Part shown: one piece after another, positions 11,400 through 59,632 of the stretch
Layout of the letters: every line of letters starts with the position of its first letter
Numbering within the stretch: the stretch's first letter is position 1
DNA from: Planctomyces sp. SH-PL14
GTDB lineage: Bacteria > Planctomycetota > Planctomycetia > Planctomycetales > Planctomycetaceae
NCBI RefSeq assembly: GCF_001610835.1
Contig: NZ_CP011270.1
Span: forward strand, 7,935,256-7,999,255
Direction: 5' to 3'
Length of the DNA: 64,000 nt
Program-made: the position numbers and the translations under genes
Notes under the pieces: model-generated
What the model was told of the DNA's origin: nothing
Database searches by the model: none
Seen by the model: only the letters and a program-made list of their open reading frames with translations

Positions 11400-11709
11400 C
11401 TTGCCGGCACGACGTGGCTACTTCAACCCCAACGTGCCACGGCAGCCAGGGGGCAAGGGGGCCACGCCCCCTTGCCCCCGGAGGCACTTCCATGAGGAAC
11501 CGTGGTCAGCAACGGATGCCCCCTTTGTGGAACCGGCGATGAGGACTCGCCGCTCGCTCTGGAATCCTGGCGGGTTGGTGAGGGGGCAGACGACACGTTG
11601 TCCGCGTTTGGACACTCACTCCTTCAGATATCTCTCGACGGCCAGGCCTCCGGCGGGCAAAGGGGCGTTGCCCCTCTGCACTCCCCACCAGGGTGCCCCT
11701 GGACCCGGT
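11400..11709 (+). repeat. Intergenic repeat family A, full-length copy
   Basis: The order of landmarks is: 'TGCCGGCACGACGTGG', 'CCCAACGTGCCACGGCAGCC', a GGGCAAGGGGG/CCCCCTTGCCC hairpin, 'GGAGGCACTTCCATGAGGAA', 'GGGTTGGTGAGGGGGCA', 'GGACACTCACTCCTTCAG', 'CGGCCAGGCCTCCGGCGGGC', and a terminal 'CCAGGGTGCCCCTGGACCCGG' hairpin. The same order recurs at 28580-28904 and, inverted, at 31717-32040. It fills the 576-bp gap between two minus-strand genes. Confidence 0.8.
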
Positions 11710-41401: not shown

Positions 41402-41705
41402 GCCTCCTCCGGTGTCCGTGCCGGCAAAGCCTCCATAGCGCAACCCAACGTGATTCGGCTGGGTGGCACTGCTGGCAGCTTTGGGCCAGCAGTGACTGGA
41501 CGCCGGGCTGACAACGGCACTGTTCGTCAAAGCACGGGCAACGGCACCCTGCGGAACTGTCCCAGCCATAACGGGCACGGGAGGGCAACGAGAACGTTCG
41601 CAAGCCATGCGCGGGACAGTCGCGGCCGAGACCATGGGTGCTTGTGCCACGATTTGCCGTTACAAGACGGGACAGTTCAGGGAACACCGGTACGGAGGAG
41701 GGGCC
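41402..41705. other. Repeat-rich gap after DUF2252
   Basis: 41409-41460 ('GTGCCGGCAAAGCCTCCATA', 'CCCAACGTGATTCGG') resembles the outer left end of family A. It is followed by a paired-hairpin repeat (41462-41556) and by 'CCAGCCATAACGGGCACGGG' with 'CAAGCCATGCGCGGGAC' (41559-41620), which resembles the inner left arm of family A. The paired hairpins appear inserted inside, or recombined with, a family A element. Confidence 0.55.
41462..41556 (+). repeat. Paired-hairpin repeat family E copy
   Basis: 'GGCACTGCTGGCAGCTTTGG', 'GCCAGCAGTGAC', then 'GCACTGTTCGTCAAAGCACG' and 'GGCAACGGCACC' follow the same two-hairpin order as 33545-33640. Confidence 0.65.
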
Positions 41706-43312: not shown

Positions 43313-43400
43313 CGTGCTTTGACGAGCAGTGGCGAGTTCGAGCCGGAAGTCCAATCACTGCTGGTCCAAAGCTGCCAGCAGTGCCACCCGGCGCCAGCGC
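43298..43400 (-). repeat. Paired-hairpin repeat family E copy, inverted
   Basis: 'CCACTGCTCGTGCTTTGACG' and 'AGCAGTGG' form one hairpin, and 'CACTGCTGGTCCAAAGCTGC' with 'CAGCAGTG' the other. This is the inverse of the copies at 33545 and 41462. Confidence 0.65.
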
Positions 43401-43448: not shown

Positions 43449-43592
43449 GTGAGGGGGCATGCCACATCAGTCCGCGCTCGGACACAGGCCGCTTTCCATG
43501 GTTCTCGACGGTCAGCCTCCGGCGGGCAAAGGGGCGTCGCCCCCTGGCATCCCCACCAGGGCCCCCGCCCTGGAACCGGTGGACAAGACATA
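43449..43592 (+). repeat. Family A right-end partial copy
   Basis: 'GTGAGGGGGCATGCCACATC', 'AGTCCGCGCTCGGACACAGG', 'CAGCCTCCGGCGGGCAAAGG' and 'CCAGGGCCCCCGCCCTGG' follow the right end of family A. It completes a row of three different repeats upstream of the kinase-nicotinamidase gene. Confidence 0.7.
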
Positions 43593-43766: not shown

Positions 43767-45317
43767 ATGTCTGATGATCCCTTTCTCCGCCTGGCCGCTG
43801 TCGGCCGCTGTCAGCTTCAGTCCCGCCTTGGTGAAGGGGGGATGGGAACGGTCTATCGCGGGCGGCACCGCGACCTCGACCTCGATGTGGCGGTCAAGTT
43901 CCTGCATCCGCATCTGGCCCGGCAAGGGAACACGTCGGAACGCTTTCTTCGCGAGGCCCGCCTTGCCGCCCGGCTGGCCCATCCGGGGATCGTCCGAGTC
44001 TATGACTGCGGCGAGACCGAGGGGCATTTCTACATGGTGATGGAGCTGGTCGACGGCCAGCCTCTGTCGGACGCCATCGCCGAAGCAGGCCCGTTCCCGG
44101 TCTCGCGGGCGCTTCAGATCGTGGAATCGGTTGCGGGAGCGCTGCGCGAGGCGCTCGACCAGGCGGGACTGATCCATCGCGACATCAAGCCGGCCAACAT
44201 CCTGGTGACGACCTCCGGCCAGCCGAAGCTCGTCGACCTGGGTCTGGCCAAAGTCATCTCCGCCGCCGAGATGCCGACCGCCCAGACCGCTGCCGGCACC
44301 GTGATGGGGACGCCGCAGTACATGCCCCCCGAGCAGTTCCGGGACGCCAGCACCGTCGATCACCGGGCGGACATCTATTCGCTCGGCGCGACCCTGTACC
44401 ACATGCTCACGGGGCGTCCTCCGTTCGACGGAGACTCCTTCTTCTCGCTCCTGAAGCAGGTCGAGGAGACCGAGCCCGAGCCGTTCCCATCGCATATCCC
44501 GCTGGCGGTGGAGGAGCTTGTCGCCCGGATGCTCTCGAAGCGGGCCGATCAGCGGTTCCAGACCTACGAGGATCTGATCGAGGCGATCCGGAGTCTCGAC
44601 CGGCCGGCCGACACGGCGACGAAGCTCCCCTCCGCGACGATCGTGGCTCCGGCCGACCCGTCGTCGCTGATCCCCGCGATCAAGACCGCCGGACGGGTCC
44701 TTCGCCCCGCGACGCCGGCCGAGAACCGCGTGCTGCTGGTGGTCGATATCCAGAACGACTTCTGTCCCGGCGGGGCGCTCGCGGTGCCGCGGGGGGATGA
44801 GATCATTCCGCGGATCAACAAGCTGGCCCGCAAGTTCGCCCATGTGATTCTGACGCAGGACTGGCACAACGAGGACCATCTCTCGTTCGCGTCCTCGCAT
44901 CCGGGCCGCAAGCCGATGGAGCACATCGAGCTCCCGTATGGCCATCAGATCCTGTGGCCCGAGCACTGCGTGCAGGGGACCGAGGGGGCGGAGTTCCACC
45001 CGGCCCTCAAGATCCCGCACTGCGAGCTGGTGATCCGGAAGGGTTATCACCATGAGATCGACAGTTACTCGGCGTTCTTTGAGAACGACCGGCAGACGCC
45101 GACGGGCCTGGCGGGGTATCTTCGGGAGCGGGGTCTGTCGCGGTTGTTCGTGGTGGGGTTGGCGACCGATTTCTGTGTCGCCTATACGGCTCTGGATGGT
45201 CGGCGGCTGGGGTTTGATGTGACGGTTGTTGAGGAGAGTTGTGCCGGGATTGATTATGCGGGGTCGTTGGCGAGTGCGTGGCAGCAGATGGAGGAGGCGG
45301 GGGTTGTGCGGGCGTGA
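43767..45317 (+). CDS. Ser/Thr protein kinase fused to a nicotinamidase domain
   Basis: This encodes 516 residues. The Hanks-type kinase domain (about 14-285) has the Gly-rich loop LGEGGMG (21-27), Lys 44, HRDIKPAN with Asp 139, DLG in place of DFG (157-159) and GTPQYMPPEQ (181-190). The nicotinamidase domain (about 320-516) has the full PncA catalytic set: Asp 327, Lys 425 and Cys 470, with likely metal ligands in DWHNEDH (Asp 365, His 367, His 371) and 'WPEHCVQGTEGAEF' (His 400). No membrane segment joins them, so both are cytoplasmic. Nicotinamidase makes nicotinic acid for NAD salvage. Confidence 0.92.
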   Translation: MSDDPFLRLAAVGRCQLQSRLGEGGMGTVYRGRHRDLDLDVAVKFLHPHLARQGNTSERFLREARLAARLAHPGIVRVYDCGETEGHFYMVMELVDGQPLSDAIAEAGPFPVSRALQIVESVAGALREALDQAGLIHRDIKPANILVTTSGQPKLVDLGLAKVISAAEMPTAQTAAGTVMGTPQYMPPEQFRDASTVDHRADIYSLGATLYHMLTGRPPFDGDSFFSLLKQVEETEPEPFPSHIPLAVEELVARMLSKRADQRFQTYEDLIEAIRSLDRPADTATKLPSATIVAPADPSSLIPAIKTAGRVLRPATPAENRVLLVVDIQNDFCPGGALAVPRGDEIIPRINKLARKFAHVILTQDWHNEDHLSFASSHPGRKPMEHIELPYGHQILWPEHCVQGTEGAEFHPALKIPHCELVIRKGYHHEIDSYSAFFENDRQTPTGLAGYLRERGLSRLFVVGLATDFCVAYTALDGRRLGFDVTVVEESCAGIDYAGSLASAWQQMEEAGVVRA

Positions 45318-45336: not shown

Positions 45337-45540
45337 ACCGGGTCCAGGGGGACCCTGGTCAGGGGATGCAAGGGGCAGAATGCCCTTTGCCCGCCGGAGG
45401 CCTGACCGTCGAGAGATGTCTGAAGGAGGCTGTGTCCAAGCGCGGACACCGTGCCGTATGCCCTCTCACCAACCCGCGGGGAGTGCAATGCAAGCGATGT
45501 GGTGTGAGGGAGTGCTCAACGCCGGTTCTCCAAACGCCGC
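45337..45540 (-). repeat. Family A partial copy, inverted
   Basis: 'ACCGGGTCCAGGGGGACCCT', 'CCCGCCGGAGGCCTGACC', 'GCTGTGTCCAAGCGCGGACA' and 'CCGTATGCCCTCTCACCAAC' match the inverted right end of family A. It begins 20 bp after the kinase-nicotinamidase stop. Confidence 0.75.
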
Positions 45541-57121: not shown

Positions 57122-59632
57122 ATGAACAAACCAGATCCCTCTCGTTCCCACTCCCACGACTTCGAACCCGGGTCGGATGCCACCCGGGCGGGAGCGGATC
57201 AGGAGACCAATCCCGGGGCCCGGACCCACACCGGACCGCCGGGAGCGGGGCCGGAGAGCGGGGCCGGACGATTGCAGGGTTTTGCTGCGGTGCACGAAGG
57301 GGGGACGCTGGGGCCGTACCGGCTGGTGAGCCACCTCGGTTCCGGCGGAATGGGGACTGTCTACCGGGCGGAGCACGTCCACCTGGAAAAGATCGTCGCC
57401 CTCAAGATCCTCCCCGCGGCGATGATGCAGAACCCGCTCGCCCTGGGACGCTTCAAGCGGGAGATGAAGGCGGTCGGGAAGCTCTCCCACCCGCACATCG
57501 TCCAGGCGTTCGACGCCGGGGAAGTCGGCGGAGTCCACTATCTGGCGATGGAGTTCATCGACGGGATCGACCTGCAGCGGTTCGTCCGCAAAAACGGACC
57601 GATGAACCCGGTCAACGCGGCCAAGTCGATCCGCCAGGCGGCCCTGGGCCTCAGCGCGGCGCACGCCCAGCAGCTCTACCATCGCGATATCAAGCCGGCC
57701 AACCTGCTCGTCACCAAGGGGGGCCAGATCAAGGTCCTGGACCTGGGACTGGCCCGGCTCGGCGAGGAGTCCGCGGGACCGGGAGGCGAGCTGACGGCCC
57801 TCGGCGAGACCATGGGGACGCCGGACTACATGGCCCCCGAGCAGTGGTCCGATTCCCGCAGCACCGATGCGCGGACCGACCTCTACGCCCTCGGCTGCAC
57901 GCTGTTCTTTCTGCTCACGGGCCGCGCCCCGTTTGCCGGCGAAGGGACGAAATCGACGGCGACCAAGATGAAGGCCCATCTCTTCAACGCGCCTCCCGAT
58001 CTCCAGACGCTTCGCAGCGACGTGCCGGCTGAACTCGTCGACGTCTGCCGGAAGCTGCTGGCCAAGGACCCGGCGGACCGTTACCAGACCGCCATGGAAC
58101 TGGCCGACGTCCTCGCGTCGATGGCCTCCTCCCAAGGACCGCAGTCGGCCCTGGTGGAACGGCCCTCCTCGGTCCCCAGGACCCCCTCGCTCGCGAAGGG
58201 GGCGTCCTCCCGCGCTTCCGATTCTCCCGCCAAGCCCGGTCGCCCCGCCGGCGACGGGCGCCGGCCCCCCGCGACGCCCCGATGGAAGGTCGCGGCGGGC
58301 GGACTCGGCGCGGCGGCGGTGCTGCTGGGAGTCATCGTCATCACGATCACGAATCGGGACGGCACCCAGACCCGGATCGAGGTCCCCGCCACTGCCGACG
58401 TGAAGGTGACCTACCCGGATTCCTCCACGAAGCCCTCCCCGCCCCCTGCGGCCACCTCCTCCTCCGCCACGCCGTCGGACGGCGCGCCGCGACCCCCCGC
58501 CCCCGCCCCGGCCCCCATCCCCTGGAAGCTCCCCGCGGCCCTGCCGGACCGGGAGATCGCGGAGTGGGTCCTGCGGCGCGGCGGGAGCGTCGTCATCGAG
58601 CCGGCCTGGAAGAGTGTGGCCCGCGTGGACAACCTCCCCGCCGGTTCCGTCGTGCTCCGGGACATCGCCTTCACGCACCTCAACAAGCCGCTCGATCTCG
58701 GCGACATCCGTTCGGTCTGCCGGGCCGTTCATCTGCGGGAGCTCGCCGCCCCCACGGTCGGGAGTCTCGGCCCCATCGCCGAGGAGCTGGCCCGGCTCCC
58801 GCGCCTGCACGTGCTGGGACTCGGCGCGGCGGGGCAATCGCTGGAGGCACTCGCACCGATCGGCCGCAACAAGGCGCTCGTCTTCCTGTCCCTCTCGTCG
58901 GAGGACATCGGAGACGGCTGGCCGTTTCTGGCCGCTCTTCCGACGGTCCGAACGCTGAAGGTGTGGGGCGCTCACGCGACCACGTTCGACAAGTTCGGGA
59001 CCTACCCCGGTCTGAAAACCCTGTTCCTCACCGGAGACGGTTTCCCCACGGAAGTCGCGGCGGCGATGCAGGCGAAGAACCCGAACCTGCGGATCGCGCT
59101 CGAAGGTCCGGGGGGCGCGCGTCTCATCGGGAACAATCCCCTGCGGGAACCGACGCTGCAGCTTCTGCGGCGGGGCGTCGAACTGCACGGCGGCCACTTC
59201 GGGGGACCGCGGGAGACGCCGCTGACCGAACAGATGGTGGCGGAAGACGATCGCGGCTGGCAGATCGGCCAGATCCGCTGCCCGGCCAAAGTCTCCCTGG
59301 ACGATCCGGCCCGCGCGCTGATTCCGGCGCTGACCGACGGGGACTACGTGGAGCTCGATTTCAGCGGCCAGGTGCGGGCGGACCGGCTGGCGGTGCACCT
59401 CGGCGAGATCAGCCGCATCTGGGGCCTCAACCTCAACGGTTCCGACATCACCGACGAAGGCCTCAAAGCCCTCGCCCACGTGATCGACATCCGCAACGTC
59501 CAGCTCAAGCACACGCGCGTAACCGCAGCGGGCATCCAGACCTTCCGGCAGTTCCATCCGACGTGCATCGTCATCAGCGACTTCGGGGAGATCCTCGGCG
59601 ACTTCACGACGGTCCCAGGCTACCCGCACTGA
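57122..59632 (+). CDS. Membrane Ser/Thr kinase with leucine-rich C-terminus
   Basis: From ATG 57122 this encodes 836 residues. The kinase domain (about 66-340) has LGSGGMG (72-78), Lys 95, HRDIKPAN, DLGLAR and GTPDYMAPEQW. A Pro/Ala-rich juxtamembrane stretch is followed by one transmembrane helix ('AAVLLGVIVITI', about 400) and an extracytoplasmic part with LRR-like motifs ('LPRLHVLGLGAAGQSLEALA', 'LPTVRTLKVW', 'ISRIWGLNLNGSDITDEGLK'). The receptor-like layout suggests it senses an external ligand and phosphorylates cytoplasmic targets. A TTG start at 57113 is possible. Confidence 0.9.
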   Translation: MNKPDPSRSHSHDFEPGSDATRAGADQETNPGARTHTGPPGAGPESGAGRLQGFAAVHEGGTLGPYRLVSHLGSGGMGTVYRAEHVHLEKIVALKILPAAMMQNPLALGRFKREMKAVGKLSHPHIVQAFDAGEVGGVHYLAMEFIDGIDLQRFVRKNGPMNPVNAAKSIRQAALGLSAAHAQQLYHRDIKPANLLVTKGGQIKVLDLGLARLGEESAGPGGELTALGETMGTPDYMAPEQWSDSRSTDARTDLYALGCTLFFLLTGRAPFAGEGTKSTATKMKAHLFNAPPDLQTLRSDVPAELVDVCRKLLAKDPADRYQTAMELADVLASMASSQGPQSALVERPSSVPRTPSLAKGASSRASDSPAKPGRPAGDGRRPPATPRWKVAAGGLGAAAVLLGVIVITITNRDGTQTRIEVPATADVKVTYPDSSTKPSPPPAATSSSATPSDGAPRPPAPAPAPIPWKLPAALPDREIAEWVLRRGGSVVIEPAWKSVARVDNLPAGSVVLRDIAFTHLNKPLDLGDIRSVCRAVHLRELAAPTVGSLGPIAEELARLPRLHVLGLGAAGQSLEALAPIGRNKALVFLSLSSEDIGDGWPFLAALPTVRTLKVWGAHATTFDKFGTYPGLKTLFLTGDGFPTEVAAAMQAKNPNLRIALEGPGGARLIGNNPLREPTLQLLRRGVELHGGHFGGPRETPLTEQMVAEDDRGWQIGQIRCPAKVSLDDPARALIPALTDGDYVELDFSGQVRADRLAVHLGEISRIWGLNLNGSDITDEGLKALAHVIDIRNVQLKHTRVTAAGIQTFRQFHPTCIVISDFGEILGDFTTVPGYPH

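Follow-up and report, generated by a model that had tools for sequence, protein, structure and literature searches.

Ser/Thr kinases with several domains are characteristic of the Planctomycetota. A 2024 survey counts 132 accessory Pfam domains and 307 architectures among the Ser/Thr kinases of this phylum and its outgroups (PMC11032199). Proteins in which the kinase domain precedes an accessory domain at the C-terminus are common there, and the protein described here is built in the same way, but the kinases of the survey are mostly membrane proteins, and WD40 and TPR are their commonest accessory domains. Neither nicotinamidase nor isochorismatase is mentioned in its main text.

A nicotinamidase domain inside a larger protein is known from Entamoeba ERM-BP (PMC6207428). 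This protein is itself regulatory and combines catalysis with ligand sensing: its nicotinamidase domain hydrolyses nicotinamide and binds NAD+, altering DNA binding. It follows that a nicotinamidase domain can bind NAD+, control another activity and still hydrolyse nicotinamide. ERM-BP is, however, a DNA-binding transcription factor of a protist and has no kinase domain. In the searched literature no description of a nicotinamidase-kinase fusion was found, so that the sequence-only reading, which knew of no characterised protein with such an architecture, still holds.

Architecture of the fusion protein

The fusion gene is located in the window, a stretch of 64,000 nucleotides from the complete, single-contig 8.44-Mb genome of Planctomyces sp. 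SH-PL14 (G000). Its features are presented in Table 1. The protein of 516 residues begins with a PknB-like Ser/Thr kinase and ends with a full-length PncA nicotinamidase; the linker between them is disordered and about 40 residues long. Pfam assigns Pkinase to residues 17-265 (E 2e-51) and Isochorismatase to residues 322-511 (E 1e-27). The translation start is backed by the N-terminus MSDDPYLRL..GRC, which is kept in most fusion orthologues. The kinase-nicotinamidase architecture with intact active sites, proposed earlier from the sequence alone, is upheld by the single open frame, the Pfam and NCBIfam matches and the motifs, and the residues named in that proposal (K44, D139, D157-L-G, D327, K425 and C470) are found exactly where it placed them.

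Table 1. Features of the fusion gene in the window and the loci with an intact fusion
Feature	Position in window	Strand	Basis
Whole fusion gene	43767..45317	+	ATG start, 516 aa plus stop, no internal stops
Hanks-type (PknB-like) Ser/Thr kinase domain, residues 12-276	43800..44594	+	Pfam Pkinase; structure match to PknB
Lys44, ATP-anchoring lysine (VAVK)	43896..43898	+	invariant in 16 fusions
Catalytic loop HRDIKPAN, residues 137-144 (Asp139)	44175..44198	+	invariant but for I/V in 16 fusions
DLG metal-binding motif, residues 157-159	44235..44243	+	invariant in 16 fusions
Thr174, candidate activation-loop autophosphorylation site	44286..44288	+	Thr in 16/16 fusions; phosphorylation inferred
Disordered linker with Ser/Thr, residues 277-318	44595..44720	+	pLDDT <50 for residues 282-318
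Nicotinamidase (PncA) domain, residues 319-516	44721..45314	+	PRK11609 above cut-off; 2wt9 structure match
Catalytic Asp327	44745..44747	+	invariant in 16 fusions; counterpart of Asp10 in P. horikoshii PncA (1ilw) by alignment
Metal-site Asp365, His367, His371 (DWHNEDH)	44859..44879	+	invariant in 16 fusions; motif also in solved nicotinamidases
Metal-site His400 (WPEHC)	44964..44966	+	invariant in 16 fusions; comparison with solved nicotinamidases
Catalytic Lys425	45039..45041	+	invariant in 16 fusions
Catalytic nucleophile Cys470 (ATDFC)	45174..45176	+	invariant in 16 fusions
Intact fusions			window, L118, L038, L150, L010, L151, L152, L153, L154, L155, L011
Intact fusions, continued			L157 (=L041, Aquisphaera insulae), L156 (=L040), L158, L159 (=L042), L160 (=L043)

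It is useful to compare the kinase half with PknB of M. tuberculosis. The two kinase domains have about 40% identity and share the RD-kinase motifs and the fold (model against 5u94: Z 33.5, rmsd 1.8, 255 residues). The Hanks-type motif set of the fusion is complete, with the Gly-rich loop, VAxK, the alpha-C Glu, HRDxKxxN, DxG and GTPxY/PE. PknB, however, crosses the membrane by a helix and carries PASTA domains outside the cell, while the fusion kinase is joined instead to a predicted cytosolic enzyme and has no strong hydrophobic segment. The highest 19-residue mean hydropathy is 1.42, below the usual threshold of 1.6 for a transmembrane helix, and it falls inside the folded nicotinamidase core. 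No PASTA repeats were matched in the Pfam/NCBIfam profile search, and the profile of the PASTA kinase Stk1/PknB (NF033483) reaches only 288.7 bits against a cut-off of 450, with the match confined to the kinase part. Dozens more Hanks-type kinase domains are present in the 8.4-Mb genome, one of them inside the window at about 57296-58171.

The C-terminal half scores 208.1 bits with the nicotinamidase/pyrazinamidase equivalog NF008623 / PRK11609 (NCBIfam), for which the curated cut-off is 174, and contains both the Asp-Lys-Cys triad and the Asp/His metal site of PncA. The model of this half superimposes on the nicotinamidase of A. baumannii (2wt9) with Z 35.6 and an rmsd of 0.8 over 201 residues, at 59% identity. 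The fold and the catalytic and metal residues are shared with this enzyme and with alphaproteobacterial PncAs; those, however, stand alone without a kinase domain. Residue D370 (nucleotides 44874-44876), which adjoins the metal-site His371, is Asp in 16/16 fusions; at this position most proteobacterial PncAs have Gly, and the kinase-less relatives have either Asn or Gly. Like N320 and R321, D370 is constant in the fusions and rare in proteobacterial PncAs. From these alignments, D370 may reflect a tuning of the active site that is specific to the fusions.

The structure predicted by AlphaFold2 (alignment of 32 rows) has two confident domains with a mean pLDDT of 86, a disordered segment 282-318 and a pTM of 0.60. 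The last value indicates that the mutual placement of the two domains is not fixed by the model. A fixed domain interface, a feature for which the sequence-only reading had looked to structure prediction, is thus not supported. The linker itself is only 19-51% identical between the orthologues and the window. With so little conservation in the linker and no fixed interface in the model, control of one domain by the other in cis is without structural support.

Distribution and evolutionary origin

Intact fusions were found in 16 independent planctomycete assemblies, and all catalytic residues are invariant in them. The orthologues with named records are planctomycetes. Compared with the window, their identity is 60-76% in the kinase and 75-88% in the nicotinamidase. 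Both domains are under purifying selection, with dN/dS well below 1 in two genome pairs: 0.16/0.98 (kinase) and 0.09/1.83 (nicotinamidase) for the window and L118, and 0.027/0.316 and 0.022/0.467, respectively, for L155 and L158. The 16 intact fusions exclude that two genes are separated by a stop or frameshift within residues 285-320, and together with the selection on both domains they rule out an artefact or a readthrough of two genes. As judged from sequence comparison and the predicted structure, a complete PknB-like RD kinase is flexibly tethered to a complete nicotinamidase, and the two have been kept as a unit through planctomycete evolution.

In a class-wide sample an intact fusion is present in 15 of 397 genomes, while in a phylum-wide sample of 392 genomes it was found in G000 and G161 only. 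The fusion therefore recurs within its class, which bears out one half of the earlier concern that it might prove common and already characterised; the searched papers gave nothing for the other half. Three more copies (L039, L044 and L163), all from metagenome assemblies, are cut or frame-broken. A plasmid search returned matches to the PncA half only, none of which covers 80% of the query.

The fusion group of the nicotinamidase tree has 22 rows and support 97/91. It branches within the stand-alone PncAs of proteobacteria, chiefly alphaproteobacteria, and is separate from the other PncAs of planctomycetes. This nesting suggests that the nicotinamidase was probably acquired laterally and then fused once. 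A kinase-less planctomycete PncA (L162) is sister to the rest of the fusion group and may, by its position in the tree, represent the state before the fusion. Two other kinase-less PncAs, L161 and L045, fall inside the fusion clade with moderate support within the group, each from one assembly. They begin with MPDD.., as in the fusions, and are therefore read as kinase losses, so that at least two lineages appear to have lost the kinase later. In planctomycete family f110 a distinct stand-alone PncA (L164-L167, in G645, G648, G670 and G632) forms a separate branch among the proteobacterial PncAs, and this position suggests a second lateral transfer.

The fusion kinases form one clade with support 100/100. 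When 198 genomes of the class were searched with the kinase domain only, all 14 members found at E<=1e-66 were in fusions, and none was without a nicotinamidase. This exclusive pairing could be a mere trace of the single fusion event. The nicotinamidase has been kept after loss of the kinase but the kinase was never found alone, and this favours the nicotinamidase as the core function.

NAD pathway and genomic surroundings

The fusion is the sole nicotinamidase of G000. Five other proteins of the isochorismatase fold (PF00857) were considered and rejected, since the metal motif DWH..H is missing from them. The gaps in the pathway of this genome were tested family by family. Nicotinate phosphoribosyltransferase (NAPRTase) was not found in G000 with PF04095, with TIGR01513 or with a homologue from the same bacterial family, and the TIGR01513 search was also negative in the carriers G161 and G457. 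A NAPRTase of another type was considered as well, but the single QRPTase_C protein of G000 reads as NadC by its sequence. All three of these genomes encode NadA as well as a QRPTase of the NadC type. With no NAPRTase detected, G000 has no recognised way of turning the nicotinamidase product into NAD, although the missing step may be carried out by an undetected non-orthologous enzyme. The idea of the sequence-only reading that the fusion could control NAD salvage is not supported for G000, where the de novo enzymes are present, but may hold for the eight of 11 tested carriers in which TIGR01513 detects NAPRTase.

A different picture is seen for the stand-alone PncAs of planctomycetes. Among 59 relatives, NAPRTase is present in 10/12 genomes with such a PncA versus 4/44 without PncA (Fisher p 1.6e-6, uncorrected for relatedness), and the two genes are often within 5 kb of each other (for example in G039, G040, G048, G049 and G057). 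No NAPRTase lies within 5 kb of any of the fusion genes tested. Four genomes of family f2 (G037, G042, G052 and G058) present the converse of G000, with NAPRTase and no clear nicotinamidase homologue.

Operon context was dropped as a clue to the pathway because no neighbour is common to 11 fusion loci; apart from the gene, only its antisense frames and other kinases, paralogous to its own, recur there. The copy in the window is surrounded by genes for a DUF2252 protein, an acyltransferase, a protein of the glyoxalase fold and a carboxypeptidase-regulatory-like protein, none of them linked to NAD. The gene is flanked by inverted copies, at 43515-43554 (+) and 45362-45401 (-), of a dispersed repeat with the core CTCCGGCGGGCAAAGGG. 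This repeat has 7 copies in the window (the others at 11648, 28828, 31763, 33382 and 50241), 797 in the genome and one in G161, of the same family, and resembles an intergenic REP or MITE-like element specific to the lineage. A second inverted pair, 41458-41509 / 43341-43392 (52 nt, 88% complementary), is located upstream of the gene.

Possible functions of the fusion

Our tentative preference, which falls somewhat short of probable, is that the fusion is a kinase-regulated nicotinamidase that sets the nicotinamide level. It would be a cytosolic bifunctional enzyme, with hydrolysis of nicotinamide to nicotinate as the presumed core function. The PncA domain probably dimerises, by analogy with other PncAs, and would thereby pair two kinase domains. 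Paired kinases could undergo trans-autophosphorylation at Thr174 of the activation loop, and perhaps in the Ser/Thr-containing linker, and the kinase state might then tune the output of the nicotinamidase or its partners. In G000 the relevant output would be the nicotinamide level and not the refilling of NAD, and lowered nicotinamide may relieve the inhibition of putative NAD-consuming targets such as sirtuins. In carriers with NAPRTase the fusion could also gate salvage. In E. coli, cells that have lost PncA contain more nicotinamide and behave as if the sirtuin CobB had been lost (PMC5734772), which indicates that the amount of nicotinamide can in itself be an output with physiological effect.

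Close behind the predicted regulated enzyme comes the possible, if doubtful, reading that information flows in the opposite direction, an option for which the sequence-only reading had named nicotinamide as the signal: the nicotinamidase pocket would read nicotinamide, nicotinate or NAD+ and switch the kinase, and hydrolysis would reset the signal to other proteins. According to the survey (PMC11032199), bacterial kinases can have accessory domains that bind ligands or proteins; ERM-BP provides a precedent, and a purely metabolic role would be odd in the three carriers from which NAPRTase is missing. Against this, the catalytic residues of the nicotinamidase are all retained, kinase-less descendants persist, and the fusion loci show no link to a kinase substrate or partner gene. 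Somewhat more doubtful still is the specific version with a nicotinamide/NAD-sensing Ser/Thr kinase whose active nicotinamidase input both reads and erases the ligand, outside salvage in the organisms without NAPRTase.

It is unlikely that the fusion merely co-localises or co-expresses two independently useful enzymes without mutual control. Planctomycete kinases gain C-terminal domains promiscuously, as the architectures counted in the survey illustrate, and the linker is disordered and variable; the pairing, however, has outlasted a divergence of the kinase to about 60% identity over several families, and this kinase was never found elsewhere. A general role as a regulator of Preiss-Handler salvage of NAD is less likely again. 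Most tested carriers do have NAPRTase, but three do not, and it is the stand-alone PncA that tracks this enzyme in presence and position. An anti-phage defence kinase reacting to NAD breakdown is highly improbable: the distribution is patchy and the kinase domain matches the PADLOC PD-T4-6 models, but these cover the kinase domain only and would do so with any Hanks kinase, the neighbours scanned include no recognised defence gene, and the protein is conserved and evolves slowly.

The carriers without NAPRTase pose a question of their own, namely what purpose is served by a nicotinamidase whose product cannot join the known salvage route. The fusion may connect protein signalling with NAD chemistry. 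If this is true, it would be a direct physical link, within one gene, from bacterial Ser/Thr phosphorylation to pyridine-nucleotide chemistry.
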